Below are positions 40,726-63,838 of a stretch of 64,000 bases of DNA, piece by piece. A program made the position numbers and the translations under genes. Position 1 is the first letter of the stretch. Each line of letters opens with the position of its first letter. The notes under the pieces were generated by a model. It did not search any database. It had not been told where the DNA came from and saw only the letters and a program-made list of their open reading frames with translations. This DNA comes from Candidatus Thioglobus autotrophicus (GTDB lineage: Bacteria; Pseudomonadota; Gammaproteobacteria; PS1; Pseudothioglobaceae), in the NCBI RefSeq assembly GCF_001293165.1, contig NZ_CP010552.1, positions 372,001-436,000 of the forward strand, read 5' to 3'.

Positions 40726-41772
40726 TTATTTTCTTTTTAACAATACATGTACTTCAGAAGAAGCGTATTTTTTATCCAGTTCAAATTGCATAGAATCAAT
40801 CAATGGTGTAATCATGTCTTGGAATAAATTCCTTATTTTTTTAGAACATTGGCTTTTTTTCATGTCAATAAAAATTTGTCGATAAAGATCGATAATGTCT
40901 GCGCCAAACCACCATTCTGAAATGATATCAAACCCAAATTCATCTGCAAGATACTCCAAAGACTTCTTGGTGTATAAATGAGTATGCCCGCCACTTAATT
41001 GCCTATGAAATGCATCATTAGATATCATTTCTAAAAATACAGAAAGACTAAAAAGAGGGACTGAGATGTATATATATTTTATTCTATTATTCTTTTTTAT
41101 ATACTCCATAGCACCACGTGGATCTTGTAAATGCTCTAGAACACCTATTAAAGAAACAACATCGACATCAGACTCTTTAGGCAAATTGTTAGTGTCATTT
41201 ATTTCATGGACAGATAGATGATCTGAACCTATCATTGTATTCCCAAAGTCTACTTGGTATCTTGAAACCTCTGTACCACTAATGTTTTTTAGTCCAATTT
41301 TATTCAAAGCACCGACAAAATACCCTGAACCTGCACCAACATCTAAATACTTCATTTTGTGGGGTGCTGCATTGTCATTCACTAATGATGTGTACAAAAA
41401 CTCAGCCTTAGGGATGTAAATGCTACTTAGTCGGTAATTAAAATCTTCAATATCACTTACCTTGTAGTTCTGGGCGTAATCCTTTCCTTCATCTCCAGTA
41501 TAAATAGCATTACAAAACTCATTCGTGTCTTCATATGCACCATTTAAATGAGTGCAAATATCACAAACTTTATATTCGATACCATCCTTAATAAAATCAT
41601 TCTCTTTTTTTAGAGGTTTGTCGCAATTTTTACAACATAAGCGGATTGGTTGTTGTTTATAAATATTTGATATCTTTCTTTGTGCCTCTATATGCTTATC
41701 ATTATCATTAAAAAATGATTTTTTTTGTTTAATTACCGATATGCTAGACTTTCCATATTGTTCAATTTTCAT
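40726..41772 (-). CDS. Zinc-ribbon class I methyltransferase (sugar C-methyltransferase-like)
   Basis: 348 aa. An N-terminal zinc ribbon (C47-x2-C50 and C70-x2-C73) precedes a SAM domain with YLDVGAGSGYFVGAL (about 143-157) and VSLIGVLEHLQDP, then SGGHTHLYTKKSLEYL, a block shared with Methyltransf_23 proteins. The ribbon-plus-SAM layout is known from TDP-sugar C-methyltransferases and from uncharacterised glycan genes. It lies between GT2 and GNAT genes. Substrate unknown. Confidence 0.8.
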   Translation of the reverse strand: MKIEQYGKSSISVIKQKKSFFNDNDKHIEAQRKISNIYKQQPIRLCCKNCDKPLKKENDFIKDGIEYKVCDICTHLNGAYEDTNEFCNAIYTGDEGKDYAQNYKVSDIEDFNYRLSSIYIPKAEFLYTSLVNDNAAPHKMKYLDVGAGSGYFVGALNKIGLKNISGTEVSRYQVDFGNTMIGSDHLSVHEINDTNNLPKESDVDVVSLIGVLEHLQDPRGAMEYIKKNNRIKYIYISVPLFSLSVFLEMISNDAFHRQLSGGHTHLYTKKSLEYLADEFGFDIISEWWFGADIIDLYRQIFIDMKKSQCSKKIRNLFQDMITPLIDSMQFELDKKYASSEVHVLLKRK

Positions 41773-41842: not shown

Positions 41843-42487
41843 TCAATATTTTCTGCTTCCCATCCAAAGCGAACGTAAAATAACCATATTTGTAAAAATT
41901 CTACCACCTAAACGAGGCCTATCTTGGCGGCCTTTAATCTTAACGTGTTGTTGTGCAATTTTCATATTTTGATTCGCTGCAAATATCGACAGCTCAGTAC
42001 CAATTGACTTGTAAGAATCAAAGAATCCTAGCTGGTCAAAAACATCAATATGGTAAGCCTTCATTCCGCATAAAGGGTCTTCTATCCCCCACCTTCGAAC
42101 AGCAACCCATGAAAAAATACTTTCTGACACTCTTTGAAGTCTACTTCTTATGCCTATAACAACAGCAAACCCCTGCTCTAATAAATCAATATACTTTTCA
42201 ATAGATTCTGGACTATGCTGCCCATCAGCATCAAAAGTAATAACTGCATCACAATTTAATTCTTTTGCTTTAATAAAGCCACTGTTTAATGCATCGTCAT
42301 AACCTTTGTTTTTTTTATGGCTGACCAGTACTGCACCAGCACCTATTGCTTCTTGCTCAGTATTATCAGTAGAGGCGTCATTAACAACAATAACTACTCC
42401 ATATTCTTTGACTGATTGCACCACATTAGAGATTGTAGCTTCCTCATTGAATGCCGGAATAACAATAGCTATTTTATATTTGTCCAT
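41843..42487 (-). CDS. GT2 family glycosyltransferase (DPM1-like, soluble)
   Basis: 214 aa GT-A domain only, without C-terminal helices. VIPAFNEEATISNVV at the start, VVNDASTDNT at 34-43, the metal-binding DADGQH at 86-91, and PLCGMKAYHIDVF in the acceptor loop. This is the dolichol-phosphate-mannose-synthase branch. It overlaps the NeuB gene by 19 bases. It may add a sugar to a polyprenyl phosphate or act on a glycan. Confidence 0.87.
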   Translation of the reverse strand: MDKYKIAIVIPAFNEEATISNVVQSVKEYGVVIVVNDASTDNTEQEAIGAGAVLVSHKKNKGYDDALNSGFIKAKELNCDAVITFDADGQHSPESIEKYIDLLEQGFAVVIGIRSRLQRVSESIFSWVAVRRWGIEDPLCGMKAYHIDVFDQLGFFDSYKSIGTELSIFAANQNMKIAQQHVKIKGRQDRPRLGGRIFTNMVILRSLWMGSRKY

Positions 42488-43536
42488 TTTATATAATCAC
42501 CAGATTTAATATTTTCCACTAACTCTTTATCGAGAATCTTCTCTAATTTATAAGGCGGTAACGCATCTTCAGGACAAGGCCTAAGAAATTCTAAATCATC
42601 CTCTCGAACCATATCCCCGGCTGCTAGATCTTTTTTAAGACGGATAGATCTTCTTTGTAAGACAACAGTCTCAGCCTCATTGTCTTCTACTTTCTTTATC
42701 TCTAACCCTAATGAATTTTCTAACTCTCTAGTCCTAAAAACCATATCTTTCCAAGTATTAAAATCCATTGAAAATTTATGGTCTGGCCCTTCTCTAGTTG
42801 TGTCATCTGTAAAATGTTTCTCGATAACACGGGCACCTAGTGTCACTGCCCCTAATACTGTAGCATGTCCAGGAGTATGGTCAGACAACCCTAAAATAGT
42901 ATTGGGATATTTTCTACCATATTCTTTAAGCACATTTAAATTTATATATTTGAAATTTTCTAATGATGCTGTATAGTTTGTATTGCACTGCATTAATACC
43001 ACATCATTAGTGTGATTCAATAATGTAGACATAGCCATCTCTACTTCATCTATAGTTGAGGCTCCTGTTGCCAATAATACTGGCTTATTTTTAGAGGCAA
43101 TATAGTCAACAATCCCTAGCCAAGTAATATCACCAGACCCAATCTTATACGCACTTAAGAAATCATCAACTTTGTCTACTAATTCATAAGAATATGGTGA
43201 AGTTAGGAAAGCTATCCCTGCCTTGTTACAAGTCTCTTTCAATACAGGTGTCCAGTCTTGATCAATTGATGCATCTTGATATACATTAAATACGCTTTTT
43301 TTCCATCTAGACTGGTGTGATTGTTGCCTATCAAGAGATTTGAATCCTTTATCGCTTACAATGGTATCAGCAGTAAAGTGTTGAAATTTAGCAGCATCTG
43401 CCCCTGCCCCTGCACAAAGATATATCAAATCCTTGGCTCGCTCTAGATTTCCGTCATGATTAGCACCTACATCTGCAATAAAGTAGGTAGGGTGATTCAT
43501 GCCTACGACTTTATTTTCTATTTGAATTTCTCTCAT
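42469..43536 (-). CDS. neuB: Nonulosonate synthase, NeuB family
   Basis: 355 aa. The TIM-barrel N-terminal NeuB domain has FIADVGANHDGNLERA, AAKFQHFTADTIV, SAYKIGSGD, and EKHFTDDTTREGPDHKFSMD. The C-terminal SAF/antifreeze-like domain runs about 290-355. It condenses PEP with a six-carbon amino sugar to make a nine-carbon acid (sialic, legionaminic, pseudaminic type). The sequence has ADVGANHDG where sialate synthases have AEIGxNHxG. Substrate class not determined, but the PseB-like gene in the same unit points to a di-amino nonulosonate or a new variant. Confidence 0.93.
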   Translation of the reverse strand: MREIQIENKVVGMNHPTYFIADVGANHDGNLERAKDLIYLCAGAGADAAKFQHFTADTIVSDKGFKSLDRQQSHQSRWKKSVFNVYQDASIDQDWTPVLKETCNKAGIAFLTSPYSYELVDKVDDFLSAYKIGSGDITWLGIVDYIASKNKPVLLATGASTIDEVEMAMSTLLNHTNDVVLMQCNTNYTASLENFKYINLNVLKEYGRKYPNTILGLSDHTPGHATVLGAVTLGARVIEKHFTDDTTREGPDHKFSMDFNTWKDMVFRTRELENSLGLEIKKVEDNEAETVVLQRRSIRLKKDLAAGDMVREDDLEFLRPCPEDALPPYKLEKILDKELVENIKSGDYIKWTNIK

Positions 43537-43546
43537 TCTATTTCTT

Positions 43547-44446
43547 CTAATTCAATAAATTGTTGTTGTTATCATATTGATGCTTCATTAATTTTATCGT
43601 ATCTATGACATTAGGAATGTCATATACTAAAGCCGAACTAATCTTTTTAACACTTAACGCCATATTTTTCGGTCTATTTGCTTTAAATTCTATGCTATCA
43701 ACACTAACTCTGTTGATATTTTCATTAGGCAATTGGAATGTTTCAGCCATTTTTTTACCAAAATCATATTTTGAGATACTATCACTACTTACGCAATGAT
43801 GCAGTCCAAATATAGGTCTTTCAATTATCTTTCCGATAATAAGCGATAAATTATCAACATGTAATGGGGAAAAATACACATCATAAAATAAACTTAATGG
43901 TACATTACCAATCAAGCTTTTAAGTATCCATTCGGCAAATGAAGTATCACCTTCCTGCGTCCAACCAATAATATTTACTCTAAGAACTAAGCCGTTATTC
44001 ATCGATTGCACAGGCCTCTCTCCCATGAGTTTAGTTTTTGCATAAACATTGAGTGGATTTTCCAAGTCGGATTCACTATATGCGCCCCGCTTCTCTCCGT
44101 CAAACACTGAATCAGTTGAAATATAAATCAGCCTGCCGTCGCTAGAACCCAAATAATCCGCCATCGCTTTGGTTGTTTCAACATGAAGTTTGGTTGCTAG
44201 CTCAACATTTTCTTCACAGGTATCTACATTGACGATTGCAGCGCAATGTATCACTACATCCAGTTTAGACTTTTCTAGCCATTTATTAAGTAATGCAATA
44301 TCTGTTAAGTCAAAACAATCCCACTCAATATTATCACCCTCTATACCTTTGCTTCTTGAAGTTGCAAATACTTTGTGTTTCTCTGATAAATGAGCAACAA
44401 GTGACGCGCCTAACATTCCACTTGCACCTGTAACTCCTACCTTCAT
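43547..44446 (-). CDS. RmlD-like SDR sugar reductase
   Basis: 299 aa with the start at the ATG 44446, whose A is shared with the TGA of the fusion gene (TGATG), so it is translationally coupled. An earlier in-frame start at 44476 is unlikely. GVTGASGMLGASLV is the NAD(P) site, YISTDSVFDG (Ser) and YAKTKLMGER (Tyr-x3-Lys) the catalytic set. Close to dTDP-4-dehydrorhamnose reductase in pattern. It would reduce a 4-keto sugar from the PseB-type dehydratase, or a later intermediate. Confidence 0.82.
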   Translation of the reverse strand: MKVGVTGASGMLGASLVAHLSEKHKVFATSRSKGIEGDNIEWDCFDLTDIALLNKWLEKSKLDVVIHCAAIVNVDTCEENVELATKLHVETTKAMADYLGSSDGRLIYISTDSVFDGEKRGAYSESDLENPLNVYAKTKLMGERPVQSMNNGLVLRVNIIGWTQEGDTSFAEWILKSLIGNVPLSLFYDVYFSPLHVDNLSLIIGKIIERPIFGLHHCVSSDSISKYDFGKKMAETFQLPNENINRVSVDSIEFKANRPKNMALSVKKISSALVYDIPNVIDTIKLMKHQYDNNNNLLN

Positions 44447-46476
44447 CAATTCAACCTTGTAAACCCACCGTGACAAACAGGTCCATCTAATAAAGAATCT
44501 ACCGATAAGTCACCATTTTCACAATCAGCTATCACTTTAAAAATCGGGTCTAATATTTGGAAATAATTATCTATCTCTTGTATCCCATGCTCTGTACAAA
44601 CATAGATTACATTTGAAGCAAGAATATTGTTTTTTAGCATCTCTTGAGTTATGTAAGTTTTATACTTTAACCAATCATCAGATTGAATACCAAATCCAAT
44701 CATAGACGGTAAACCATTAACCTTAATAGGTAATTGATACTTTTCACCTAAGTTTTTCCATTGATTGCCAATATCTTTGCCCGTATTAGTTATCAATTCC
44801 CATGACTTAGTTTTATCCATAACCTCTAACGTCTTTAATGCGGCTGTAGGCCCAATTCTTTCAGTCCAAAAAGTGGAGCTAATAAAAGTACTTTGAGCAA
44901 CATCCATTACTTCTTTTCTTCCGATTACAGCAGTAATAGCATACCCATTACCCAAAGCCTTCCCAAAAACAGCCATATCTGGCTCAATGCCATATAATTT
45001 ATGAAGCCCGCCATTGCTTTGTCTGAAGCCAGAAGTGCACTCATCAAAAATCAAAATAATATTATTTTCACTTGCTATCTTTCTTACCTTAACCAAAAAA
45101 TCATCTTGAGGTTCGTCATTGCGAGAGACTTCCATTTTTATAACGCCAATATCATGATTTTGTATAATAGTTTCTAGCTCATCTATGCGATTATAGTTGA
45201 ATGGAACCACACTGCCTTTAAGGTCTTTAGGAACACCTTTAGGATTTAAACCTGGTAAGAGGTGCCCTGTAAGATTATCATCGTCTTCTAGATTTGCGGA
45301 TAAATACCAATCATGCCAACCATGGTAACCACAAATAGCTACTTTATCTTTACCAGATGCAGCCCTTGCTATTCTAATTGCTATTGCATTTGCCTCACCA
45401 CCTGTTCTTGCCAAGCGTACCATATTTGCCCAAGGGTGAAGCTCAATCAATTTTTCAGCAAGATATACCTCTTCTGGACAGTTAAATGTAGACATGTTTC
45501 CTTTTTTAACAACATTTATAACTGCAGCATCCACTTCATCATTACCATAACCCAAGATGTTTGTGCCAATTCCCATTATTGACATATCGGTATATTCACG
45601 CCCATCCAAATCCCATACTTTGCAACCTTTAGCCTTGCTAAAATACGCTGGCCAATGATCTGGAAGAAACATTTCACTTCTCTTGGATAGCAGCATATTC
45701 CCACCTGGAATAATACGCTTAGCTCTTGACCATAATTTTTCCCCAGTACTCATAACCGCCCCCTCGTTGCGAATTAAATGCTCATTTACAGTAAATAATT
45801 TTGGTTTATTTTCTTTTAACTCTATTATTTTTTTCCATGAAAAATTTATTTCTGGGTGAAAATAATTAAAAATATTTTGCACTACAGTAAAGTCTTCAGG
45901 CTCATCAACTGTCCATCTTTCTGCAGAAAAATCCTTAGAATTTTTTAGATAAAATTTCTTAAAAGTATCAGAATTGATAATATAAGGCGTTACATGCTCT
46001 CTCTGAAAGTCTTCTTTTCCCTTTTTATGAGCTTCTTCTAGCGCCTTAATTGAAATAACTTCAACATCTAACCCATCTGGATAAGTAGGTGGCTCACGAT
46101 TACTAGCATAATCTACATTAGAATCAATAAATCCCTCTATCACTTCATCAACAAGAAAACTATCTATCAATGGACAATCCCCAGTTATTCTGATAATAGC
46201 ATTAGCTTTAAATGTTTTTGCTGCTTGAAAATATCTATCCAACACATCATTTTCCTCTCCAGAAAATACCTTATAACCCAAACTTTCAACATGATTAATT
46301 AATGGGATATTATTTTTATTATTTGAAGTGGCGAGTACTATTTGATCAATGTGCTTAGAATTAGACAGCCTATCAATCAACAACTCAATCATTGGGATAT
46401 GATTGATTCTCATCATTACCTTATTAGGCAAACGAGCAGATCCCATTCTTGCTTGGATAATTGCTACAACTTTCAT
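44446..46476 (-). CDS. SpsF-like cytidylyltransferase fused to class III aminotransferase
   Basis: 676 aa bifunctional protein. Residues 1 to about 235 are a SpsF/NeuA-like nucleotidyltransferase (AIIQARMGSARLPNKVM, RITGDCPLID, DYASNREPPTYPDGLDVEV). Residues about 245-676 are a PLP class III aminotransferase of the glutamate-1-semialdehyde aminomutase type: RTGGEANAIAIRIAR, CGYHGWHDW, the FDECTSGFR aspartate D478 and the Schiff-base lysine K506 (FGKALGNGY). Both active sites look intact. The enzyme could aminate a keto sugar and activate the nine-carbon product with CTP. It lies two bases after the aldo-keto reductase gene. Confidence 0.9.
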   Translation of the reverse strand: MKVVAIIQARMGSARLPNKVMMRINHIPMIELLIDRLSNSKHIDQIVLATSNNKNNIPLINHVESLGYKVFSGEENDVLDRYFQAAKTFKANAIIRITGDCPLIDSFLVDEVIEGFIDSNVDYASNREPPTYPDGLDVEVISIKALEEAHKKGKEDFQREHVTPYIINSDTFKKFYLKNSKDFSAERWTVDEPEDFTVVQNIFNYFHPEINFSWKKIIELKENKPKLFTVNEHLIRNEGAVMSTGEKLWSRAKRIIPGGNMLLSKRSEMFLPDHWPAYFSKAKGCKVWDLDGREYTDMSIMGIGTNILGYGNDEVDAAVINVVKKGNMSTFNCPEEVYLAEKLIELHPWANMVRLARTGGEANAIAIRIARAASGKDKVAICGYHGWHDWYLSANLEDDDNLTGHLLPGLNPKGVPKDLKGSVVPFNYNRIDELETIIQNHDIGVIKMEVSRNDEPQDDFLVKVRKIASENNIILIFDECTSGFRQSNGGLHKLYGIEPDMAVFGKALGNGYAITAVIGRKEVMDVAQSTFISSTFWTERIGPTAALKTLEVMDKTKSWELITNTGKDIGNQWKNLGEKYQLPIKVNGLPSMIGFGIQSDDWLKYKTYITQEMLKNNILASNVIYVCTEHGIQEIDNYFQILDPIFKVIADCENGDLSVDSLLDGPVCHGGFTRLN

Positions 46477-49503: not shown

Positions 49504-51255
49504 TTAAGAGTTAATCATTTCGTCATATGTTCCTACATCCACTGAGCCATTATTGTTTATTCTTATTATCCTATCACAATTTTTTAAGGTAGATAATCGA
49601 TGTGCAATGATTAAAACTGTTAAATCTCTTTTCAGTTCGCTTACCTCTTTCATTACTGCACGCTCTGTATTATTATCCAGAGCACTTGTCGCTTCATCAA
49701 AAACCAGTATGTCTGTTTGCTTATAAAGCGCTCTGGCGATTCCTATTCTTTGACGCTGACCTCCAGAAAGTCGAATGCCTTGTTCACCTACAATGGCTTG
49801 GTAGCCATCTTTACTCTCGCCTATTAATTCATCAATTTTTGCTTGCTTTATAGATTTTTCCACTCGTTTTTTATTAATTTCATCTTTAGGAATTCCAAAA
49901 GCAACATTTTCTTCTATAGAATTGTCAGATAAATAAATACTTTGTGGAACGTGTGCTATATGCCTTCTCCAGGCCTGTCTATTTATTACTGTTATGACCT
50001 TATTATCAACAACAACCTCTCCCTTTGTTGGTTGGGTTAACCCCATAATAACATCTAATAGTGTGCTTTTTCCACTTCCAGTGGTACCTATAAAGCCAAC
50101 ACGCATGCCCTTGGTTATTTTTAAATTAATATTTTTCAACACCCAAGGGGTATTTTTTGAATATCTAAAACTTATGTTATTTAAAATAATCTCCTTTTTA
50201 AAAGGAATCTCTATTGATCGATTTTGAGTAGCATGAATAGGCAGGGGCTGGTTTAAAAGATCCAATACATCCTGATTAGATGATCTCGATCCTTGTATAG
50301 CACTATACGAACTGTATGCTTGTTGCAATGCCGGAATCAACCTTTGAGCTCCAAGTGCTAATGCTCCTAATATCGGAATTGCAGTTGTTATTCCACCTTG
50401 ATTCTGAGTTAAAAAGTACGCAAGGATGGCGATTAAACTCATTCCTATGGACTCCATTACGAACTTAGGACTACCTGAAATAAACATATTATCTCCTGAT
50501 GCTCGTCGCATAGGTAAGTCTGCATTACGATAAAGAGTGCAATAAAATTCTTGACTGCCATCTATAAGCACATCTCGGATTCCACCAAGACCCTCTTGTA
50601 ATGATTTTACTATTGCATTTGACTGATAAGCCACAATACTACTATTCTGTTTAAGTTTTTTCCTGGTGAATTTAATTACAATCCCATAAAGCACACCAAA
50701 ACCAACAACTGCAAAGAATGAAATTTGCATATTGATCACGAATAGTACACTTACAATCCCCACAAGCATAATTATCGAACTTACTAGAATAAGGGCTGGA
50801 GTCAGCCCCCCTTTAACTACCACATGTGTTTTTGTTACTATACCATTGATTACTTCACTACTATTTTTCAGTAAATGAACTGAGTACTCTTGATGTAATG
50901 TGCGACGATAAACATCTATACTGATATCTGCACCTATTGCATACGATAATCTGGTTGTCACATACAAAAGTGTTAGTCGTATTATTCCCGCAAAAATGGC
51001 TACAGTTATAAACGCAATGGTTAAAGGCAATATCAACTGGTCTGGTTTGGTTATATTCAAAAGCTGTATTGGATATTGCATAAGTGAATGCTGGTAAATT
51101 TGCTCTGGAGAAGTAAATACACCCAAGAATGGGAGGGTCAGACCAATACTAATAACCTCGGCTATACTAGCAATAAACATCAGTGCAAGCAACATATAAA
51201 GTTGCCTTTGTCGTAACTTTGACAAATGATGCCACAGACTTATTATTTGTTTCAT
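49504..51255 (-). CDS. ABC exporter, MsbA/PglK-type lipid-linked glycan flippase
   Basis: 583 aa, one half transporter. The membrane domain (residues 1 to about 330) has six helices. The nucleotide-binding domain carries Walker A GTTGSGKST (about 388-396), the Q-loop VPQSIYLSD, the signature LSGGQRQRIG, Walker B ILVFDEATSALD and the H-loop IIAHRLST. The family includes PglK, which flips undecaprenyl-PP-oligosaccharide. The gene stands alone between the phosphoramidate genes (72 bases upstream in transcription) and PseB. A second flippase besides Wzx suggests two glycan chains or a decoration-specific exporter. Confidence 0.9.
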   Translation of the reverse strand: MKQIISLWHHLSKLRQRQLYMLLALMFIASIAEVISIGLTLPFLGVFTSPEQIYQHSLMQYPIQLLNITKPDQLILPLTIAFITVAIFAGIIRLTLLYVTTRLSYAIGADISIDVYRRTLHQEYSVHLLKNSSEVINGIVTKTHVVVKGGLTPALILVSSIIMLVGIVSVLFVINMQISFFAVVGFGVLYGIVIKFTRKKLKQNSSIVAYQSNAIVKSLQEGLGGIRDVLIDGSQEFYCTLYRNADLPMRRASGDNMFISGSPKFVMESIGMSLIAILAYFLTQNQGGITTAIPILGALALGAQRLIPALQQAYSSYSAIQGSRSSNQDVLDLLNQPLPIHATQNRSIEIPFKKEIILNNISFRYSKNTPWVLKNINLKITKGMRVGFIGTTGSGKSTLLDVIMGLTQPTKGEVVVDNKVITVINRQAWRRHIAHVPQSIYLSDNSIEENVAFGIPKDEINKKRVEKSIKQAKIDELIGESKDGYQAIVGEQGIRLSGGQRQRIGIARALYKQTDILVFDEATSALDNNTERAVMKEVSELKRDLTVLIIAHRLSTLKNCDRIIRINNNGSVDVGTYDEMINS

Positions 51256-51327: not shown

Positions 51328-52101
51328 TTAAATTACTCTTATTCTTTTTACTCTCTCTAGCGTAATTGGAGCATGCAAATCTTCAACCGTATCTACTTCA
51401 ACCCAGTCTTCATCAATCTGAACCGAAGCTACTTTGCCGCCAATACTAACTATAAATTGTAGTAAATCGGTCATATATGAGTTTTCAACTTCTTTTCCTA
51501 ATAATTTTCCACTTTCAAGTGCGCTATGAAATGCTGACTTTATTTGCCTTACCCCTTCAGAAGAAAATTTCATTAATCCCATATATTGACCTTCTATTTC
51601 TTCAAGGGAACTTGGCTTTTGTCCAATCTCGCTAATTGTTCCATCTTTTCGTAATTTTAATGTTTCCGCGTCATCTAATGGATTTTCATTTCTCTCTCTC
51701 CAATAACCTTCCCACTTCTTATCAATAGTCACTGCAATATCCGCCTTAGACTTTATTAGAGCTTTCAATATATTTTTAGAATAAACTATATCTCCATAGC
51801 TCACAATAACATCACCCTCTAGCTCTTCTTCTGCTGAAAATAAAGTCCAAACCATATTTGTTTCAAAATACCTAGCATTCACTTTAAGTTTTATATCACC
51901 CCTTTTCAGCATCTCCGACTTATAACCACCAATTATTACTATGTCGTCTATTCCTTCAGATTTTAGGACTTCTAATTGCCTATCAATTAGACTAACACCA
52001 TCAATCTCTACCATGCATTTTGGGCGATCTAACGTGTATGGGCGTAATCTCGTTCCCTCTCCAGCAGCCAATATAATAACCTTTAGATTTTTATTTACCA
52101 T
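51328..52101 (-). CDS. CTP:phosphoglutamine cytidylyltransferase-like nucleotidyltransferase (Cj1416 type)
   Basis: 257 aa nucleotidyltransferase. AAGEGTRLRPYTLDRPKCMVEI (12-33 region) is the nucleotide-binding signature; SYGDIVYSK supplies a metal-binding Asp, and VEVDTVEDL at the end is typical of LicC-like enzymes. In Campylobacter the homologous Cj1416 joins CMP to L-glutamine phosphate to make CDP-L-glutamine. Position at the end of a four-gene set whose other members match Cj1418, Cj1417 and Cj1415 makes this reading much stronger than phosphocholine activation. Overlaps the hydrolase gene by 11 bases. Confidence 0.82.
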   Translation of the reverse strand: MVNKNLKVIILAAGEGTRLRPYTLDRPKCMVEIDGVSLIDRQLEVLKSEGIDDIVIIGGYKSEMLKRGDIKLKVNARYFETNMVWTLFSAEEELEGDVIVSYGDIVYSKNILKALIKSKADIAVTIDKKWEGYWRERNENPLDDAETLKLRKDGTISEIGQKPSSLEEIEGQYMGLMKFSSEGVRQIKSAFHSALESGKLLGKEVENSYMTDLLQFIVSIGGKVASVQIDEDWVEVDTVEDLHAPITLERVKRIRVI

Positions 52102-52732
52102 TATTTATCAACCTCTTAAATCTTTCTAAGTGACTTATTACAAGCCTACCTTCTCGTTCTGGGTGCCACATCCAAGCTTCCCATGGCAACTCTCTATGTC
52201 TAATTGCTTCTATATTTCCATCATCAGATTTAGCCAATACACTAAACACATCTGGGCAGCCTTCTAAAGCATAATTGTGATAACTATTTACTGATTCCAC
52301 TGCCTTTATTGTACTAACTTTATCGTATTGTAATTTATGGCGAGTATTTACATGTCCAGACACCTTAATTAATTTTCCGCCAACATGTAATCCCATCATT
52401 TGCATTCCCCTACAAATCCCCAATACTGGTTTATTATGTTTCTCTGCCCACTTAAGTAAAAAATTCTCTGTCACATCTCTTTGAACAGCCGTTCCAATAT
52501 CATTACCCCCAGATAATAATAATGCATTAATATTTAATAAATTTAACCACTGTTCTAATAATGGATGACCGCCAGATTCTGATGATACATTGACCAAATT
52601 ATTTGGAATTGGAACAGGAATAAAGCCTGCATCAATAACCCACTCAACTAGCCTTTGATCTACTGAATCTCTCCATTCATTATAAGCGTTAACCTTGTCA
52701 ATACGCTGAGTAATCCCAATCAATATGCTCAC
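52091..52732 (-). CDS. Class I glutamine-amidotransferase-like hydrolase, Cj1417 type (gamma-glutamyl-CDP-amidate hydrolase)
   Basis: 213 aa, peptidase C26/GATase 1 fold: LLLSGGNDIG (71-80), the nucleophile C107 in LGICRGMQMMG, and the His-Glu pair H190/E192 in WMWHPERE. Cj1417 of Campylobacter hydrolyses gamma-glutamyl-CDP-amidate (CDP-L-glutamine) to glutamate and cytidine diphosphoramidate. All three catalytic residues are present. It overlaps both neighbours (11 bases downstream, one base upstream), so it is tightly coupled to them. Confidence 0.83.
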   Translation of the reverse strand: MSILIGITQRIDKVNAYNEWRDSVDQRLVEWVIDAGFIPVPIPNNLVNVSSESGGHPLLEQWLNLLNINALLLSGGNDIGTAVQRDVTENFLLKWAEKHNKPVLGICRGMQMMGLHVGGKLIKVSGHVNTRHKLQYDKVSTIKAVESVNSYHNYALEGCPDVFSVLAKSDDGNIEAIRHRELPWEAWMWHPEREGRLVISHLERFKRLINNGK

Positions 52733-53310
52733 TATACTTTATCCAATATTTGAACTATCATCTCATCAGTAGTATATTTTTTCTTGCTATAATCAAACAA
52801 TAAATCTGGAGACTTTGGCTCGTCAACATCTATATCCAAGCCGAATACGTGTCTTAATTTGCCAGAATCATAACTATGATAAATTCCTTTGGGGTCACGA
52901 TTTCGCAATTCAGCAATAGGTACCTTTAAATAAATTTCAAAATAATTTGGCAAGTTCTCTCTATTCCACTTATACACTTCAGAAAACATTGAAATAGTAG
53001 CTATCACAACGGTTATGTTTTGATCAGAAAGAACACGGCAAAGATGCGCATATCTCATCGCAAGCAAAAAGCGTACGTCTTTATTATAATTTTTTTTAGT
53101 ATAAGCATCCGCACCAAAAACTTCTCGCAATTGGTCGCCATCAAGATAAACAACTGCACTCCCTTTATCTTTAAGCGTATTGCTTATCTTTATACCTAAT
53201 GTTGTCTTTCCAGATCCAGACAATCCTGTTATCCAAATAACCCTACTAATAATCTTATCCTTGTCAGTATAGTGGACTAACAATACCTGCAGCACAGTCA
53301 AGATGCACAC
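52732..53310 (-). CDS. APS-kinase-like kinase, Cj1415 type (cytidine diphosphoramidate kinase)
   Basis: About 192 aa at most. P-loop GLSGSGKTT (about residues 30-38), then DGDQLREVF, which in APS kinases binds the nucleotide substrate, and KKNYNKDVRFLLAMRYAHLC. In Campylobacter Cj1415 phosphorylates the 3'-hydroxyl of cytidine diphosphoramidate, giving the donor for transfer, as APS kinase does to APS. The start is uncertain: the longest frame begins with GTG at 53310 and overlaps the upstream gene by 47 bases; TTG at 53283 is an alternative. No sulfate-activation genes are nearby, which argues against a PAPS role, but the sulfotransferase-like gene at 62119 keeps that open. Confidence 0.8.
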   Translation of the reverse strand: MCILTVLQVLLVHYTDKDKIISRVIWITGLSGSGKTTLGIKISNTLKDKGSAVVYLDGDQLREVFGADAYTKKNYNKDVRFLLAMRYAHLCRVLSDQNITVVIATISMFSEVYKWNRENLPNYFEIYLKVPIAELRNRDPKGIYHSYDSGKLRHVFGLDIDVDEPKSPDLLFDYSKKKYTTDEMIVQILDKV

Positions 53311-55624
53311 GGTTTGCTTTCGTCAGTGAATTAAAACGCTGTTCGCCACATCCGATTGCTGCAGGCACTCCAAACTCTGCACAGCGAATTGCCATATGTG
53401 AATTAGCCCCTCCATATTTAGTAATTAAGCCAGATATTTTTTGTGAAAAAATCCAATCAAACCCAGGGTCAGCTCCCTCTATAACAACTATCTTTTCCTT
53501 TATTAAGACTCCATCTGTCCTAGAGTCTAAAAATACAAATGGAGCGGTCACTTCTTTATGGGTTATAAAATTTGGGTGGCTCACTTGAAATGGCACAATG
53601 TGAACTCCAGCTTCATCTGTTAAAACTTGTGGAAGACGTATTGATGCGCTAATATTGTGTTTATTCTCTTCTTGTACATATATGCATCTTAGTTGATCTT
53701 CTATAGATTTTTCATCACTTTCTTTTAATACTTTAAGTAGAGATGCCAATGGAACATGCGATATTTCATCTCGGCTTAAGCCATTATCTTCTGCAAAATT
53801 TGCAATTAATTCTAGTATATTGCTCAATATACGAGTAAATACAAACTTACCATACTCTCTACCAATTATTGCGTCATGTATATACTTCAGAAGATCATCT
53901 GCATTAATTGTATCAAAACCATCTTTTTCCAGCAGCTGATTTATTTTTTTCCGTTGCACATCTGATAATTCAAACTGCTTGACATTCTCCTCTTGATGAT
54001 TAGGAATACATCCAGTAGATATAGAGCTCATCTGATCATATCGGTGTGATTTTATATCATAAGTCCCAGGGCGAAGGTGTCCATATTTTCCCATAAAATC
54101 ACTATTAGAAATCCTCCCCAAATGTAAAGAATGCATATCATCGACTAATTCACTTGCTACAGTATGTACTCCAGACTGAATCTCATTAATCTCTGCACTA
54201 GTTAAGATAGACTCTTGCTCAAATGATAATAAAATAGTTTTTGCAATAAAACCATGCCTTGCCAAAATAGAAAATGGAATAGTTCCCAGCTGAACACAGT
54301 CATCAACCATAGAATACAAATTAAAAATATCCTTTTGGGCAACAAAGTCAACCTTGCTATATTTTTTGCTTAATGAATCTACCTTACTTAATGCGCAATT
54401 AATAGATCCATTACCATTACCACCAATCAGCTTTTTAGTATGTTGCACATGTAGCCGTCTAAACTCACCCTTTTCAGTTGCACTTAGTGCATCTCCAATT
54501 AGATTGTTAATTTTTTTGTCTATATCAAAACTGTAAGTTGTTATTGCTATGCCAAACTCAACTTTATCATGCAACTCTGGATTGTCTTTAAGTCGTCCAA
54601 TCCAATGATTAACCAATTTTTTGGCAATCAATGGATTGGTATTTTTTGGCAAATAACTATTAAAACTTAAACGTGTATCAATAAATGGCTGACCCGAAAG
54701 CATCACCATCAATGGTTCGCCAGTTGATGTCATGTACCCCATTATTGACCTTGCCTTACTCCAAGCAGAGTCTGTAATAAGGGTTTGATAGAGTGAGGAT
54801 GCTAAAGCTCTAGGAGCCCTACCTATCATCTCTATAGGATTCCAGTCTGGCATTTGCCCAAAAACGGTAACTTCTCCATATATTTTTCTATACCTCTCAA
54901 ACTTGTTTTTGACAAACAATTGCACTCCGTGCAAAGTTGTATCAATAGCGTTTGTAATTGACCTGTCCCAATTTGGCTGCGTAGTAATTGCCCTAACTTG
55001 TAACAAATATGGCGTTAGATCTTTACCAAGTGCAAACTCTATATCAAGAAACTGACTATTCATCACTTGCTCAAGATCTTGAACTGCTTGCAATAATTTA
55101 ATAAAACGCTCTGAACGTAGTTTGTTAATTGAATTACGGTGAATAAATATCGTACGATTAGAATACTCTCCATTGCCTGATGTCACTGTGTCAGTTAATC
55201 CAGACTCATCATCATAATTAATTACATAATATGGCGCACCAGTATTTAAATCATGAGTAAATACCACGCCACTCATGTTAATATTTTGTACCATCTCTTG
55301 CACCATAACTTCATCATTGGGAAGTATTTGACGCTTTTTTTTATAGCTAGAAATAACTGTTTGAACCCCCTTTCTTATTTCTTCTGGACTGTCTAGAGGA
55401 ATGTTCAACACAGAGTCATATTCTCCAGCTGAGGAACTAGAGTTTGTATCTTCATCTTCAGCTGAAGATCTAATAACCAACTTGCTAGATTTAACGTTTT
55501 TTCTTATTAGATCAACTACCTTGGAAAAATCATAAGCCTTTATATAAAAGCTTATAAAATTTGGAACAACAAAGATTGACACTCTAGTTTGGACATTGCG
55601 CAAAGTGTCTGATTTTGATCCCAA
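53264..55624 (-). CDS. PEP-synthase-like L-glutamine kinase, Cj1418 type
   Basis: 786 aa. ATP-grasp-like N-terminal domain (VIRSSAEDEDTNSSSSAGEYDSVLNIP, about 50-77; VMVQEMVQNINMSGVVFTHD; FLDIEFALGKDLTPYLLQVRA), a long helical middle, and a C-terminal swivelling phosphohistidine domain with H743 in KYGGANSHMAIRCAEFGVPAAIG. The PEP-binding barrel of true PEP synthase is absent. This is the layout of Campylobacter Cj1418, which phosphorylates L-glutamine to L-glutamine phosphate with a phosphohistidine. TTG start at 55624 is supported by AAGGG eight bases upstream (55633-55637) and a stop codon a short way up. First of the four-gene phosphoramidate set. Confidence 0.85.
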   Translation of the reverse strand: MGSKSDTLRNVQTRVSIFVVPNFISFYIKAYDFSKVVDLIRKNVKSSKLVIRSSAEDEDTNSSSSAGEYDSVLNIPLDSPEEIRKGVQTVISSYKKKRQILPNDEVMVQEMVQNINMSGVVFTHDLNTGAPYYVINYDDESGLTDTVTSGNGEYSNRTIFIHRNSINKLRSERFIKLLQAVQDLEQVMNSQFLDIEFALGKDLTPYLLQVRAITTQPNWDRSITNAIDTTLHGVQLFVKNKFERYRKIYGEVTVFGQMPDWNPIEMIGRAPRALASSLYQTLITDSAWSKARSIMGYMTSTGEPLMVMLSGQPFIDTRLSFNSYLPKNTNPLIAKKLVNHWIGRLKDNPELHDKVEFGIAITTYSFDIDKKINNLIGDALSATEKGEFRRLHVQHTKKLIGGNGNGSINCALSKVDSLSKKYSKVDFVAQKDIFNLYSMVDDCVQLGTIPFSILARHGFIAKTILLSFEQESILTSAEINEIQSGVHTVASELVDDMHSLHLGRISNSDFMGKYGHLRPGTYDIKSHRYDQMSSISTGCIPNHQEENVKQFELSDVQRKKINQLLEKDGFDTINADDLLKYIHDAIIGREYGKFVFTRILSNILELIANFAEDNGLSRDEISHVPLASLLKVLKESDEKSIEDQLRCIYVQEENKHNISASIRLPQVLTDEAGVHIVPFQVSHPNFITHKEVTAPFVFLDSRTDGVLIKEKIVVIEGADPGFDWIFSQKISGLITKYGGANSHMAIRCAEFGVPAAIGCGEQRFNSLTKANRVHLDCAAGIVSPLY

Positions 55625-57690: not shown

Positions 57691-59091
57691 TTATTTCTTA
57701 ATTCGATGCAAAATAAATGCCTTGAATGCAAAATATAAGCTTAAACCTATTGTCACATGCCAAGGTGCTAAGCGCATGCGATACAGAGTTCCTACATTTG
57801 GAATTGCAATAGATTGCACCAACAATATTACTGCACCAGTTAACAATACCGCTGCAATAATTATAATATTCTCGTTGTTATATTTGATAATCAGACCTAT
57901 AAATCCGGCTATAAATGCAGCATATGCAACCAACATCTCAATGCCGGAAATTTTTCGCATAATCCCACTTCCAGGATTGACTCCTTGGGCAATCCACATA
58001 TCAGGAAATGGTGCCAAATATCCAATTTGAATAGCTCGTGGAATATAATTTAGCACGTCTAATACTGAATAAAATCTAACGTTGGCATCAATCATACTGC
58101 CTGCATTTGGATAGCCATTGATAAAATTCTGCCTAACTCGATCAAATCTAGCTGGATACGTAACAAGTAATTTCTCCAATAGAGCTATAGAATTAGAATT
58201 TATAGAATTAGAATTTATAGAATTAGAATTTATAGAATTAGAATTTATAGAATTAGAATTTATAGAATTAGAATTTATAGAATTAGAATTTATAGAATTA
58301 GAATTTATGTGATTAGCCTTCGGTGGTGGAGCATAATAATCTTGGATACTTGAAAGCGACACACCCCACTGATGAATAAAAAACATGCCAGTTACAATAA
58401 TCAATAATCGTTTATATCGTGTGGGTCTACGCCACAAAATCCACAACACCAAAATACTTACGCCTGCCATCCAGGCGATACTTACCACTTCCATAAAGTA
58501 TGGCCTAACTATCCAAATCAGAAAAAGCCCTGAAATAGTTCGTAGAAAAAAAGATAAATACACTTTCCAGCCCTTTTGATCACCAGCTAGTAGTAACGTA
58601 TTAAAGATGAGAAATACTCCAACTATGGAGAATATGTCTTTATGTAGCTGCCCATAAATCATCAATGAGCTAGGAAATAACAAAAGAGGCAGTACACCAA
58701 CCCAAGTGTATTTATTCTCCTTAGCTATATATGAAATTAACCTGTGTAACTCTGCAACTGCAATACCAAATAAAATAGCATTTAATGGCAAATACATAAA
58801 AGGTTTAGAAACCCCAGTCAGTGCATAAATTGCAGCAGCTATCCCAGCTGGCGCCTGCCCAAAAAGCCTTAACTCCCACTTATCCCAGCCAGTTTCATTA
58901 ATTTTATGTGCTGATTCTACTGCAATTTGATTGAACCAGACCCAATCTGCACCTTTTAATAGCCCATCTCCGGCGTGCAAATCTGGAAACACATATGGTA
59001 AAAAAATTAATTGCAATGAAAGCCCTAGTGTTAATGCCCATAAAAAAGCAATCAACCCTATAACGTATGATTTTGACAAATCAATATTCAT
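57691..59091 (-). CDS. Multi-pass membrane protein with an INSNS pentapeptide repeat, Wzy/GT-C-like
   Basis: 466 aa, about ten hydrophobic helices. After the first helix a loop reads LHAGDGLLKGADW, as in GT-C proteins. Between helices near residues 255-305 lie eight copies of I-N-S-N-S encoded by a perfect 15-bp tandem repeat (58186-58305). Later YPNAGSMIDANVRFYSVLDVLNYIPRA and four C-terminal helices follow. The repeat is in a loop that should face the periplasm. O-antigen polymerases have similar size and a large periplasmic loop, so Wzy is a reasonable alternative to GT-C. Start ATG at 59091. Confidence 0.55.
   Translation of the reverse strand: MNIDLSKSYVIGLIAFLWALTLGLSLQLIFLPYVFPDLHAGDGLLKGADWVWFNQIAVESAHKINETGWDKWELRLFGQAPAGIAAAIYALTGVSKPFMYLPLNAILFGIAVAELHRLISYIAKENKYTWVGVLPLLLFPSSLMIYGQLHKDIFSIVGVFLIFNTLLLAGDQKGWKVYLSFFLRTISGLFLIWIVRPYFMEVVSIAWMAGVSILVLWILWRRPTRYKRLLIIVTGMFFIHQWGVSLSSIQDYYAPPPKANHINSNSINSNSINSNSINSNSINSNSINSNSINSNSINSNSIALLEKLLVTYPARFDRVRQNFINGYPNAGSMIDANVRFYSVLDVLNYIPRAIQIGYLAPFPDMWIAQGVNPGSGIMRKISGIEMLVAYAAFIAGFIGLIIKYNNENIIIIAAVLLTGAVILLVQSIAIPNVGTLYRMRLAPWHVTIGLSLYFAFKAFILHRIKK
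58186..58305 (-). repeat. Eight perfect copies of a 15-bp tandem repeat
   Basis: The unit TATAGAATTAGAATT on the plus strand is repeated eight times without a mismatch, followed by a decayed ninth (TATGTGATTA). Fifteen bases keep the reading frame, so gain or loss of units lengthens or shortens a loop of the membrane protein by five residues per step instead of switching the gene off. Confidence 0.97.
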
Positions 59092-61495: not shown

Positions 61496-62113
61496 CTAAT
61501 CACAAAGATTTTTAGTTACCCACTGTCTATCTTTTTCTCCAGAATATATCAGTTTTATTTTTCCTGAATCGATAAATTCCTGAACGGCCTTATAAACACC
61601 ATGGTGCTTATGATGAGGATCAGGGTACCAATCATCTCCTGCAATAACCCCTCCTTTTTTTATTTTTTGACAGAGTAAGCCTAGCTCAATAGTAGTATGC
61701 TCATACTCATGTGAAGAATCAATATACGCCCAATCCAAACTATTTGACTGGAATCTTTTTAATATATCTATGTCGCTATCTACATACAATTTAACCAGTC
61801 CACTCTCAATATCTTTCTTAAATTTTCTCAATATATTGCGTAATGCATTAATTGTACTCTTATCACCTGATGCCCACTCCCACTGAGCCTCATATTGGTA
61901 CCATGGATCAATTAAATATAACAACTTTGGCTTTGTATTTTTTAATAAGACCTCGGAAAACCTGCCTTTAAAAACACCTAATTCAACACCAATGCCACCC
62001 TTAGGTATGTATTTTTCTAGTGCTGCTATTCTAATATTTATATTGGATTTGGAAAGATAGCCTTCTAGAAATTCAAATCTTACAATATATTTTTTTATAA
62101 ATTTTATAATCAT
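61496..62113 (-). CDS. Class I SAM methyltransferase (Methyltransf_24-like)
   Basis: 205 aa. SAM motif GGIGVELGVFKGRFSEVLL (about 34-52), LLYLIDPWYQYE for the acidic loop, and SLDWAYIDSSHEYEHTTIELGLLCQKIKKGGVIAGDDW, the metal-binding D and GDDW of the family that methylates sugar hydroxyls (TylF/MycE-like). It lies between the sulfotransferase-like gene (five bases) and two glycosyltransferases. Confidence 0.83.
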   Translation of the reverse strand: MIIKFIKKYIVRFEFLEGYLSKSNINIRIAALEKYIPKGGIGVELGVFKGRFSEVLLKNTKPKLLYLIDPWYQYEAQWEWASGDKSTINALRNILRKFKKDIESGLVKLYVDSDIDILKRFQSNSLDWAYIDSSHEYEHTTIELGLLCQKIKKGGVIAGDDWYPDPHHKHHGVYKAVQEFIDSGKIKLIYSGEKDRQWVTKNLCD

Positions 62114-62118
62114 TTTTT

Positions 62119-63108
62119 TTAAACCTTGTTGTATAAATATTCCTTTAAATGCCTTTCAATGAGCCTTAGCTCATCTTTATCCAAAAGTTCCTTATATATA
62201 CCGATATTTTTGCTTGAAGCGACAGAGTCATAATTTGAGTATAAACCCTTGTCAATACTCAAAAAATCACATACTTCATCGGAAACAACACTATGTCTTT
62301 CAACAAATTCTTCAAATCGAACTATTTTAATAAAATCACTATCTACAGATTCTATCCTTAACATCATTTCCTTATACCAGTCAATATATTCACTGACAGA
62401 CCGAGCATTTTTATGCTTTTTTAACTCACAATACTGGTCTCTAGGATCTCTAACAACAAGAATAACCTTTCTATTAGGAAAATAATCAGTTGAATTGACT
62501 GGATTCCAGCCAGATCCTGCCTGATTAAGTAAAGTGTACTTTTTATCATGAACTCCAAACATTTTCAAATGCAATTCACGAGTTTTTTCAACAAAATCTA
62601 CTCCAATGGTGGGTAAATACTTATCTTTAGCATAGTCTTTATTTATTATTTTTAGACGGTTATATATTCTCTTAAAGAATGGCGCAGTAAACCATTCCCA
62701 GTGGGAGTTATAGGGAAGCGAACTAACAACAAGACTATCAACATATAAGTCAATTAATTTATAATACGCATTGATATTATCCCCATACCCCATTCCAGGA
62801 TTATATTTGGTGTGTTTACGACCTAGCTTATATGCTATTTTTTTAAATTTAACTATATTTAAATGCGCACTTGGATGACTAAAAAAAAATCCACATGATG
62901 CATGAAGTGACATTATCCCGTATGGCACTTGAGGTAAAAGATATTCCTCTCCATTAAGCGGATCGTATGAGTCACTTCTACCAGATAAAAAATCATACAC
63001 TGCACCTGCGCCAGAGTAAAAAGTTCCTAAAGTTATTACGAATTTTGGAGGAAAATTTTCCTTATCACGCAAATTTAGAGTGAACTTTTTTTTTACAGAT
63101 TTAGACAT
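62119..63108 (-). CDS. Sulfotransferase-like protein
   Basis: 329 aa. An N-terminal LGTFYSGAGAVYDFLSG (about 27-43) stands where sulfotransferases have the 5'-phosphosulfate loop (G-x3-S-G). KVILVVRDPRDQYCELKKH (about 215-232) matches the 3'-phosphate-binding R-D-P-R-D and the following Ser/Cys position. The donor would be PAPS. It could also bind other 3'-phosphonucleotides, for example the 3'-phospho-cytidine diphosphoramidate expected from the cassette at 51328-55624, which is an inference. Overlaps the NeuA-type gene by eight bases. Confidence 0.7.
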   Translation of the reverse strand: MSKSVKKKFTLNLRDKENFPPKFVITLGTFYSGAGAVYDFLSGRSDSYDPLNGEEYLLPQVPYGIMSLHASCGFFFSHPSAHLNIVKFKKIAYKLGRKHTKYNPGMGYGDNINAYYKLIDLYVDSLVVSSLPYNSHWEWFTAPFFKRIYNRLKIINKDYAKDKYLPTIGVDFVEKTRELHLKMFGVHDKKYTLLNQAGSGWNPVNSTDYFPNRKVILVVRDPRDQYCELKKHKNARSVSEYIDWYKEMMLRIESVDSDFIKIVRFEEFVERHSVVSDEVCDFLSIDKGLYSNYDSVASSKNIGIYKELLDKDELRLIERHLKEYLYNKV

Positions 63109-63838
63109 ATAAGTCTCTTGTTGTTTTTACTTCTCGGCAGCGATTAGACATTAGCATTTTTGCAATATTAAAATCAATCATTTCATCTATGTCTATAGAG
63201 CTCTCTCTATTCATTTTATAAGAGTAAATATTATCTTGTATAAAAAAAGTTTTTTCATTCAATATTCTTTCTATCTTACAGAGGTAGATGGCGCCATTTA
63301 ATCTGTAGTAACTTTCCAAATCTTGACTTCTGCTATTTAACACCTGATTATCCAAAAAATTTGACAAACTTCCACTAGATGGGATTGTATTACACCACAA
63401 CGGGCTATGATCTACATTACATACACTAACTATCGCATCACATTTTTTTTGCTGTAGCAACTCTATAGACTCATCTATATTTTTAACAGTTCGCAGTGGG
63501 GAAGTTGGTTGCAAAAGGACAACATAATCATACCGTTCATCAGCCTTTTGAAAAAATTCTATCGCGTGCAAAACAACACTGATTGAGCTTGCATGGTTTG
63601 AGGAAAATTTATCTGGCCGTATAAACGGTACTTTTGCACCGTATTTTTTAGCAACTGTTGAAATTTCATTATCATCTGTTGACACAACTACATTGTCAAT
63701 ATATTTTGATGCTAACGCCGCTTCGATTGTCCAAGAAATTAGTGGTTTTCCCGATAAATTAAGAATATTTTTCTTTGGTATACGCTCACTCCCACCTCTC
63801 GCAGGAATAATAGCTAAAACTTTTTTTTTGCCAATCAT
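63101..63838 (-). CDS. neuA: CMP-nonulosonate synthetase (NeuA/LegF/PseF family)
   Basis: 245 aa. AIIPARGGSERIPKKN (9-24) binds CTP, then LLQPTSPLRTVKNIDE, and NGAIYLCK, with the late DIDEMIDFNIA. It activates a nine-carbon acid to the CMP-sugar. The preceding gene looks like LegE, which points to LegF of the GDP-dependent legionaminate route. Its ATG overlaps the LegE-like stop by one base. The partners LegB, C, G, I may lie to the right of the window. Confidence 0.92.
   Translation of the reverse strand: MIGKKKVLAIIPARGGSERIPKKNILNLSGKPLISWTIEAALASKYIDNVVVSTDDNEISTVAKKYGAKVPFIRPDKFSSNHASSISVVLHAIEFFQKADERYDYVVLLQPTSPLRTVKNIDESIELLQQKKCDAIVSVCNVDHSPLWCNTIPSSGSLSNFLDNQVLNSRSQDLESYYRLNGAIYLCKIERILNEKTFFIQDNIYSYKMNRESSIDIDEMIDFNIAKMLMSNRCREVKTTRDLYV

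Follow-up and report, generated by a model that had tools for sequence, protein, structure and literature searches.

A predicted CDP-phosphoramidate pathway in a surface-glycan locus of Candidatus Thioglobus autotrophicus

Introduction

Bonds between phosphorus and nitrogen (P-N) on surface glycans have so far been described as a Campylobacter speciality. Does a surface-glycan locus of the cultured marine SUP05 bacterium Candidatus Thioglobus autotrophicus encode a full route to such a phosphoramidate and, if so, how would the product be finished? The locus lies in a stretch of 64,000 nucleotides (contig NZ_CP010552.1, positions 372,001 to 436,000; hereafter the window, numbered from its first letter), in which four genes at 51328-55624 on the minus strand resemble Cj1415-Cj1418, known from the O-methyl phosphoramidate (MeOPN) pathway of C. 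jejuni. We propose, with moderate confidence, that they belong to a cytidine diphosphate (CDP)-phosphoramidate pathway that decorates a surface glycan with a phosphoramidate, either unmethylated or finished in some other way.

A 2022 review describes the kinase of the pathway as specific to C. jejuni (PMC9561416), and in a 2014 study 13 of 30 Campylobacter strains had the genes (PMC3907429). A 2025 paper (PMC12660748) describes a comparable cluster on an archaeal Borg. It is the only report on the pathway outside Campylobacter that we found in the open-access literature, which was available in part and does not cover the original enzyme papers.

Four genes for a predicted CDP-phosphoramidate core

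The cassette is predicted to comprise the following genes.

53264 to 55624, minus strand: L-glutamine kinase (Cj1418/PRK05849 family) with an ATP-grasp-type N-domain, a swivelling phosphohistidine domain and His743
52732 to 53310, minus strand: CDP-phosphoramidate kinase (Cj1415-like, adenosine 5'-phosphosulfate (APS)-kinase fold), 203 bits with NF004041, apart from the CysC clade
52091 to 52732, minus strand: gamma-glutamyl-CDP-amidate hydrolase (Cj1417-like, class I amidotransferase fold) with Cys107, His190 and Glu192
51328 to 52101, minus strand: CTP:phosphoglutamine cytidylyltransferase (Cj1416-like), 41.5% identical to the reference

The coordinates and reading frames of the initial annotation proved correct on re-check: all four frames are intact and overlap or abut. 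Its four family assignments were likewise borne out by profile scores, identities to a reference cassette and conserved residues, the hydrolase scoring under the cut-off of its model. The glutamine kinase reached 825 bits with NF004508 (cut-off 501), the next family following at 61 bits. The cassette kinase exceeded the NF004041 cut-off of 127 bits, and its 105.5 bits with the apsK model lie under the cut-off of 138.7. References were Campylobacterota cassettes with a hydrolase above the NF045546 cut-off (58 of 397 genomes), for which ten capsule stretches were read; all ten hold the glutamine kinase, the hydrolase and the cytidylyltransferase, and seven hold the kinase. In the reference cassette L160, the glutamine kinase scores 1130 bits with NF004508, and the kinase shows a similar pattern (NF004041 285 bits; apsK 132 bits, under the cut-off). 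We equate these NCBIfam and Pfam models with Cj1418, Cj1415 and Cj1417, an assumption with which the reference cassettes agree. Identity to L160 is 33% for the glutamine kinase, 46% for the kinase and 31% for the hydrolase. The cytidylyltransferase matched no specific family model, and its identity to the reference gene extends over 253 residues (196 bits, blastp). Each L160 query matched a single window protein (blastp, E<=1e-3).

As had been claimed, the key motifs are present. Counting a column as conserved when at least 93% of aligned rows share the family residue and gaps stay below 25%, we found the family residue at 99/99 columns of the glutamine kinase including His743 (97 sequences), at 22/22 of the hydrolase (85 sequences; Cys107, His190 and Glu192 each 85/85), at 36/36 of the cytidylyltransferase (87 sequences) and at 16/16 of the cassette kinase (69 sequences). 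The glutamine kinase consists of PF01326 (PPDK_N) and PF00391 (PEP-utilizers), and the domain search listed no phosphoenolpyruvate (PEP)-barrel domain at E<=0.001, which agrees with the barrel-less enzyme first described. The gene order, glutamine kinase-kinase-hydrolase-cytidylyltransferase, is also unlike that of Campylobacter, as noted initially: L160 reads transferase, two methyltransferases, glutamine kinase, hydrolase, cytidylyltransferase, kinase, an order that we take to equal Cj1421-Cj1415.

Better matches to pyruvate phosphate dikinase (PPDK)-like, APS kinase or licC genes of other pathways were sought and did not appear, either in the scores or in the kinase tree. The scores rule out PPDK/PEP synthase and rifampin phosphotransferase as the identity of the glutamine kinase, and a GMP-synthase-type identity as well. 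Phosphocholine cytidylyltransferase was rejected on 65.8 bits for 1jyk vs 196 bits for the reference cassette gene.

Named genomes were scanned with a profile of eight relatives. At least 588 stretches matched, at least 569 of them encoding a glutamine-kinase relative; the best 80 loci of these were kept, and as one duplicates a plasmid record, 79 are distinct, a count that leaves out plasmid, phage and viral matches. A gene was counted as present at a profile score above 70 bits within the fetched locus. On this basis the glutamine kinase, hydrolase and cytidylyltransferase occur together in 68 loci, the kinase in 60 and all four genes in 58; this co-occurrence of the same families excludes a chance grouping. 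The hydrolase gene adjoins others of the cassette in most related loci.

By analogy with the characterised Campylobacter enzymes, a four-step precursor pathway very likely runs from these genes. The product of 53264-55624 would N-phosphorylate glutamine with ATP through a phosphohistidine, giving N-phosphoglutamine, which that of 51328-52101 would couple to CTP to form CDP-glutamine. The 52091-52732 enzyme would hydrolyse CDP-glutamine to glutamate and CDP-phosphoramidate, and the 52732-53310 kinase would phosphorylate the latter at the nucleotide 3' position. The phosphoramidate would then pass to a surface glycan of nonulosonate type, itself a predicted product of this locus. The available part of PMC6429109 summarises the reactions of the Campylobacter enzymes.

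Methylation and the missing Campylobacter-type partners

Phosphoramidate of C. jejuni exists both with and without the methyl group, according to the accessible part of PMC9561416. For the window, the initial annotation had seen neither a methyltransferase pair of the Cj1419/Cj1420 type nor a transferase of the Cj1421/Cj1422 type next to the cassette. The first point stands: no such pair is adjacent, and the window gave no match, even at E<=10, to methyltransferase profile MT6, under which the Campylobacter pair falls (22 open reading frames matched across 10/10 Campylobacter-type stretches), the methyltransferase search of this genome being confined to the window. The second point stands in part. 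The reference cassettes have transferases of the DUF2972 family, for which a search of the whole genome gave 0 matches (4 in the control genome G210), so that this type is missing genome-wide; "no transferase" was too strong, since a sulfotransferase-fold gene lies seventh upstream.

A second gene comes into play here.

61496 to 62113, minus strand: Methyltransf_24 (class I) protein, PF13578 51 bits, 5 bases after the sulfotransferase-like gene and sixth gene upstream of the cassette

It is a possible O-methyltransferase for the glycan or the phosphoramidate, as judged from its sequence. The window holds at least three class I methyltransferases, and the product might be O-methyl phosphoramidate as in Campylobacter, with the methyl group coming from an unrelated enzyme (61496-62113, 40726-41772 or 13866-14606). 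The closeness of 61496-62113 to the candidate transferase is in favour of this, as are the matches of 13866-14606 to a reference methyltransferase (E 1.6e-5) and to profile MT14 (3.1e-6), and class I methyltransferases of related loci lie next to cassette genes (MT6 type 12/13, 3.3 expected). However, no methyltransferase lies inside the cassette, MT6 is silent, and the MT14 matches in the window, at 19.1 and 18.5 bits, are of the strength of a generic S-adenosylmethionine (SAM) domain. We regard a methylated product as rather doubtful, and lean towards one that lacks Campylobacter-type methylation.

A sulfotransferase-fold protein as candidate transferase

Which protein might then move the phosphoramidate? 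The leading candidate, as a hypothesis, is the following gene.

62119 to 63108, minus strand: sulfotransferase-fold protein, candidate phosphoramidate transferase, PF13469 25.6 bits (cut-off 27), seventh gene upstream

It is the only match to PF13469 (Sulfotransfer_3) in the genome; PF00685 gave no match in the whole genome. An AlphaFold2 (AF2) model built from 9 sequences has a mean confidence (pLDDT) of 69, and in a Foldseek search at E<=0.001 all 15 of its matches were sulfotransferases. Compared with TPST1 bound to adenosine 3',5'-bisphosphate (PAP; 5wrj), it gave a VIA Z of 15.1 and a root-mean-square deviation of 4.5 over 225 residues. As modelled, the protein has a sulfotransferase fold. 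Homology of this family with DUF2972 was tried and rejected (hhalign probability 2.7%).

In related loci, sulfotransferase-like homologues seeded from the window adjoin a cassette gene in 6 of 10 cases where 2.4 are expected (P 0.011). As a control, 9 of 10 other gene clusters were unenriched; the exception, TagF-like cluster c10 (9/11), we read as biology (Glyphos_transf). We do not rely on a broader sulfotransferase count (14/25 adjacent, 6.2 expected, P 0.0005), since some of its seeds had been picked from neighbours. The profile of such neighbour sulfotransferases (clusters c19 and c39) has no window match at E<=1e-6, and a profile-profile comparison with the window group gave a probability of 95%. 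In locus L068 (Cyclobacteriaceae), 39 bp separate the end of a homologue (29% identity) from the following glutamine-kinase gene, whose product is 55% identical to that of the window.

We also asked how sulfotransferases (E<=0.001) and APS-kinase-family enzymes (>90 bits) are distributed over 95 genomes, its own and 11 others of the genus included. Both occur in 23, a sulfotransferase only in 3, a kinase only in 9 and neither in 60 (Fisher p 7.6e-12); the three sulfotransferase-only genomes are all assemblies of 66-86% completeness. The genome also encodes a CysQ-type 3'-nucleotidase. We tentatively suggest that 62119-63108 is the transferase and uses 3'-phospho-CDP-phosphoramidate as sulfotransferases use 3'-phosphoadenosine 5'-phosphosulfate (PAPS), although we rate this as less probable than not.

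The cassette kinase is distinct from CysC by sequence

The same co-occurrence also fits another explanation, namely that the APS-kinase-like gene is a real APS kinase that gives PAPS to the sulfotransferase-like protein, the phosphoramidate being moved from CDP-phosphoramidate without 3'-phosphorylation. Consistent with this, the cassette kinase is the sole full-length APS-kinase-family enzyme of the genome, the second match reaching 21.2 bits vs a cut-off of 21.1 over profile positions 2-50 only, and 19 of the 79 related loci, some of them cut by contig ends, have no such kinase. In a tree of 25 CysC and 68 cassette kinases, however, the window kinase branches with the cassette kinases outside the CysC clade (CysC support 100/99), and at 19 of the 20 columns diagnostic for CysC it departs from the CysC residue. 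The tree was computed under LG+G4 (no mixture model) and gave a long-branch warning that includes L058 and L189; the kinases of L058, L065, L069 and L088, long branches that were retained in the counts, may be nearer to CysC. As the apsK score also falls short and the gene sits between two cassette genes, a genuine APS kinase was rejected as its identity, and the alternative as a whole appears improbable. The enzyme is, on this evidence, a predicted CDP-phosphoramidate 3'-kinase distinct from CysC.

Its start is unusual. No ATG, GTG or TTG occurs from the stop of the glutamine-kinase gene to the kinase P-loop; the start would be either a TTG or GTG within the upstream gene or an ATT behind AAGGATAAG, and the true start is probably near 53240-53263.

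The closest cassette, that of Candidatus Thioglobus sp. AH-558-A21 (L040), is 60% identical in the glutamine kinase, 62% in the hydrolase and 73% in the cytidylyltransferase, and trees place these three as sisters of the window genes (100/100, 100/93 and 100/98; those of the glutamine kinase and cytidylyltransferase built from 30 chosen rows under a plain LG model). In contrast, the L040 kinase is 43% identical and is not a sister: a pairing of the two kinases was rejected by the approximately unbiased (AU) test (p 0.0017, log-likelihood 60 lower), a p value that is indicative, the group having been picked after viewing the tree. With three genes sister and the kinase not, an exchange of the kinase in one or other Thioglobus lineage is probable. 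In L040, moreover, the kinase and hydrolase genes flank an SGNH-like gene; the corresponding slot is empty in the window. The window kinase is drawn outside the clade of formyltransferase-associated kinases (96/91); we do not claim this exclusion, since a placement inside the clade passes the AU test (p 0.143).

That the cassette is decayed or inactive, its genes kept by chance after acquisition and its partners lost, seems very improbable: the glutamine kinase is above cut-off in one of 95 genomes, its own, the SGNH-like slot is empty and no canonical start codon lies ahead of the kinase P-loop after the upstream stop, but the four frames are intact and every family-conserved residue is kept.

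The surrounding glycan locus

Neighbouring genes bear on the acceptor.

49504 to 51255, minus strand: flippase-type ABC transporter directly after the cassette; best NCBIfam model PglK, 318 bits (below cut-off 1000)
44446 to 46476, minus strand: fused cytidylyltransferase-like part (by eye) and pyridoxal phosphate (PLP) aminotransferase; the aminotransferase half matches PRK06209 at 237.6 bits (below cut-off 486)
42469 to 43536, minus strand: NeuB-like nonulosonate synthase (named by eye), best window match of cassette neighbours in 11 related loci
63101 to 63838, minus strand: CMP-sugar synthetase-like, NeuA-like protein (named by eye), best window match of cassette neighbours in 13 related loci

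A homologue of 44446-46476 (48%) lies near the phosphoramidate cassette of L054, and we assign to this gene the putative role of supplying a sugar precursor. Glycosyltransferases are also among the neighbours, several of which were named by eye. Together, the NeuB-like and CMP-sugar synthetase-like proteins, the aminotransferase, the glycosyltransferases and the PglK-like flippase point to a nonulosonate-type surface glycan as the predicted acceptor.

Elsewhere in the glycan locus, a perfect 15-base repeat at 58186-58308 (8.2 copies) keeps the frame and encodes repeated NSINS within the 57691-59091 protein, a membrane protein by eye. Two kinds of transposase, named by eye, occur in near-identical copies scattered over the region (12263-12952 and 25612-26301; 17525-18574, 27590-28762 and 34491-35663), in line with its variability.

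Spread of the core and its end modules

The rarity implied by the initial annotation did not hold. At least 16 phyla are named among the 79 loci, and two archaeal titles bear no phylum; all four genes, as given above, are present in most of these best loci. The glutamine kinase is alone in 4 of 79, two of these on contigs shorter than 8 kb. Among the 95 genomes, only its own has a glutamine kinase above cut-off, which makes the locus variable within the group. A glutamine-kinase relative is found in 15 plasmid records, four of them classed conjugative; six were examined, with hydrolase and cytidylyltransferase in 5/6 and the kinase in 2/6. Viral contigs gave one relative. L039 (MT837632.1), a 9,540-base unverified 'Bacteriophage sp.' record, is a short faecal contig with a phage label and encodes a glutamine-kinase relative (33%). 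On a Cupriavidus taiwanensis plasmid (L037, 9845-12208), a relative occurs without the other three genes about 8 kb from nif genes, with a thiamine pyrophosphate (TPP) enzyme and a histidinol-phosphate-type aminotransferase nearby; its role may be in a different P-N or phosphonate pathway. Cassette genes also occur in the SAR11 (Pelagibacteraceae) genomes L065, L069, L054, L055 and L088, two of which (L065 and L088) have sulfotransferase-like genes next to that of the kinase.

Modifier genes usually accompany the kinase: a small protein with a formyltransferase-like protein (small protein in 32/79 loci), an SGNH-like protein (7/79) or an MT6 class I methyltransferase (14/79). None of these profiles matched the window at the thresholds used. 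The small protein (about 195-245 residues, no Pfam match) stands with a Formyl_trans_N-like protein beside the kinase in L044 (12881-14345), L093 (8661-9967) and 30 further loci; the pair spans many phyla and is fused in L101 and L099. The AF2 model of the small protein (pLDDT 87) had no match in the PDB at E<=0.001. It adjoins a core gene in 23/24 cases (6.0 expected), and the formyltransferase set in 15/39 (10.3 expected, P 0.06, non-significant), weak because the small protein intervenes and generic formyltransferases are drawn in; of these two counts, that of the small protein is the cleaner. The Asn position that we take to be catalytic reads His (LHxHxGxLP) in 25 of the 38 formyltransferase-like proteins from such loci, the remainder including generic ones, which suggests another one-carbon or acyl transfer, perhaps on phosphoramidate. 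The SGNH-like protein (by eye, from the L040 sequence; 400-430 residues, no Pfam match) occurs in L040 (12905-14113), L041, L048, L052, L053, L084 and L116, mostly beside the kinase, where other loci have the small-protein/formyltransferase pair.

A TagF-like relative of CDP-glycerol phosphotransferases is encoded just before the kinase gene in L064, L067, L070, L076, L087, L093, L097, L099, L101, L112 and L117. The protein of L093, the one tested, matches PF04464. The TagF-like protein is a likely phosphoramidate transferase for its cassette type.

Discussion

Taken together, the reading of the precursor chemistry is probably right, and the finishing probably differs from the Campylobacter type. 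Several observations weigh against the proposed pathway and its candidate transferase. The hydrolase reaches 100 bits with its top NCBIfam model, NF045546 (gamma-glutamyl-CDP-amidate hydrolase), vs a cut-off of 250; its closest relative, that of L040, is likewise low (103 bits). Six genes separate the cassette from 62119-63108, and the L068 locus has no kinase. In the R-x7-S motif of sulfotransferases, the Ser binds the 3'-phosphate; the candidate keeps Arg220 and has Glu in place of this Ser, the position reading Glu in the window and L068, Gly in L108 and Ser in 6 of 9 aligned rows. CysQ has another role, the removal of PAP derived from coenzyme A. Other apparent transferases occur among the 79 loci, TagF-like in 16 (14 with kinase) and CDP-alcohol type in 4 (all with kinase). 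Finally, the tight coupling of methyltransferase 61496-62113 to the candidate transferase would allow for a methylated product.

Slightly more speculative than the transferase assignment is a joint reading in which a sulfotransferase-fold phosphoramidate transferase works in a genome without recognisable CysC, the cassette kinase adding the 3'-phosphate, and in which one four-gene core in at least 16 phyla would carry exchangeable end modules: DUF2972, TagF-like, CDP-alcohol and sulfotransferase-like transferases, and methyltransferase, formyltransferase-like and SGNH-like modifiers. That the core occurs in both bacteria and archaea suggests an overlooked glycan chemistry; if the joint reading holds, phosphoramidate glycans would be widespread and have mostly gone unnoticed. 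A full precursor pathway without a Campylobacter-type transferase in a cultured, harmless bacterium makes the question testable, and the candidate transferase and the end modules are concrete enzymes to assay.

Among known systems, the PAPS-dependent sulfotransferase TPST1 (5wrj) has its fold in common with the candidate and differs in sequence (13% identity), in the Ser that is Glu in 62119-63108 and in the donor, here proposed to be a cytidine nucleotide. The Cobalt Borg cluster is, in the available part of PMC12660748, a cytidylyltransferase/MeOPN-type cluster outside Campylobacter recognised from structure prediction; unlike the window cassette it lies on an archaeal extrachromosomal element, and we liken the two by description, not sequence. 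The closest comparison is with MeOPN synthesis by Cj1415-Cj1418 of C. jejuni, which shares four homologous enzyme families, the conserved residues and the setting in a surface-glycan locus, whereas the window has no adjacent methyltransferase pair and the genome no DUF2972 transferase.

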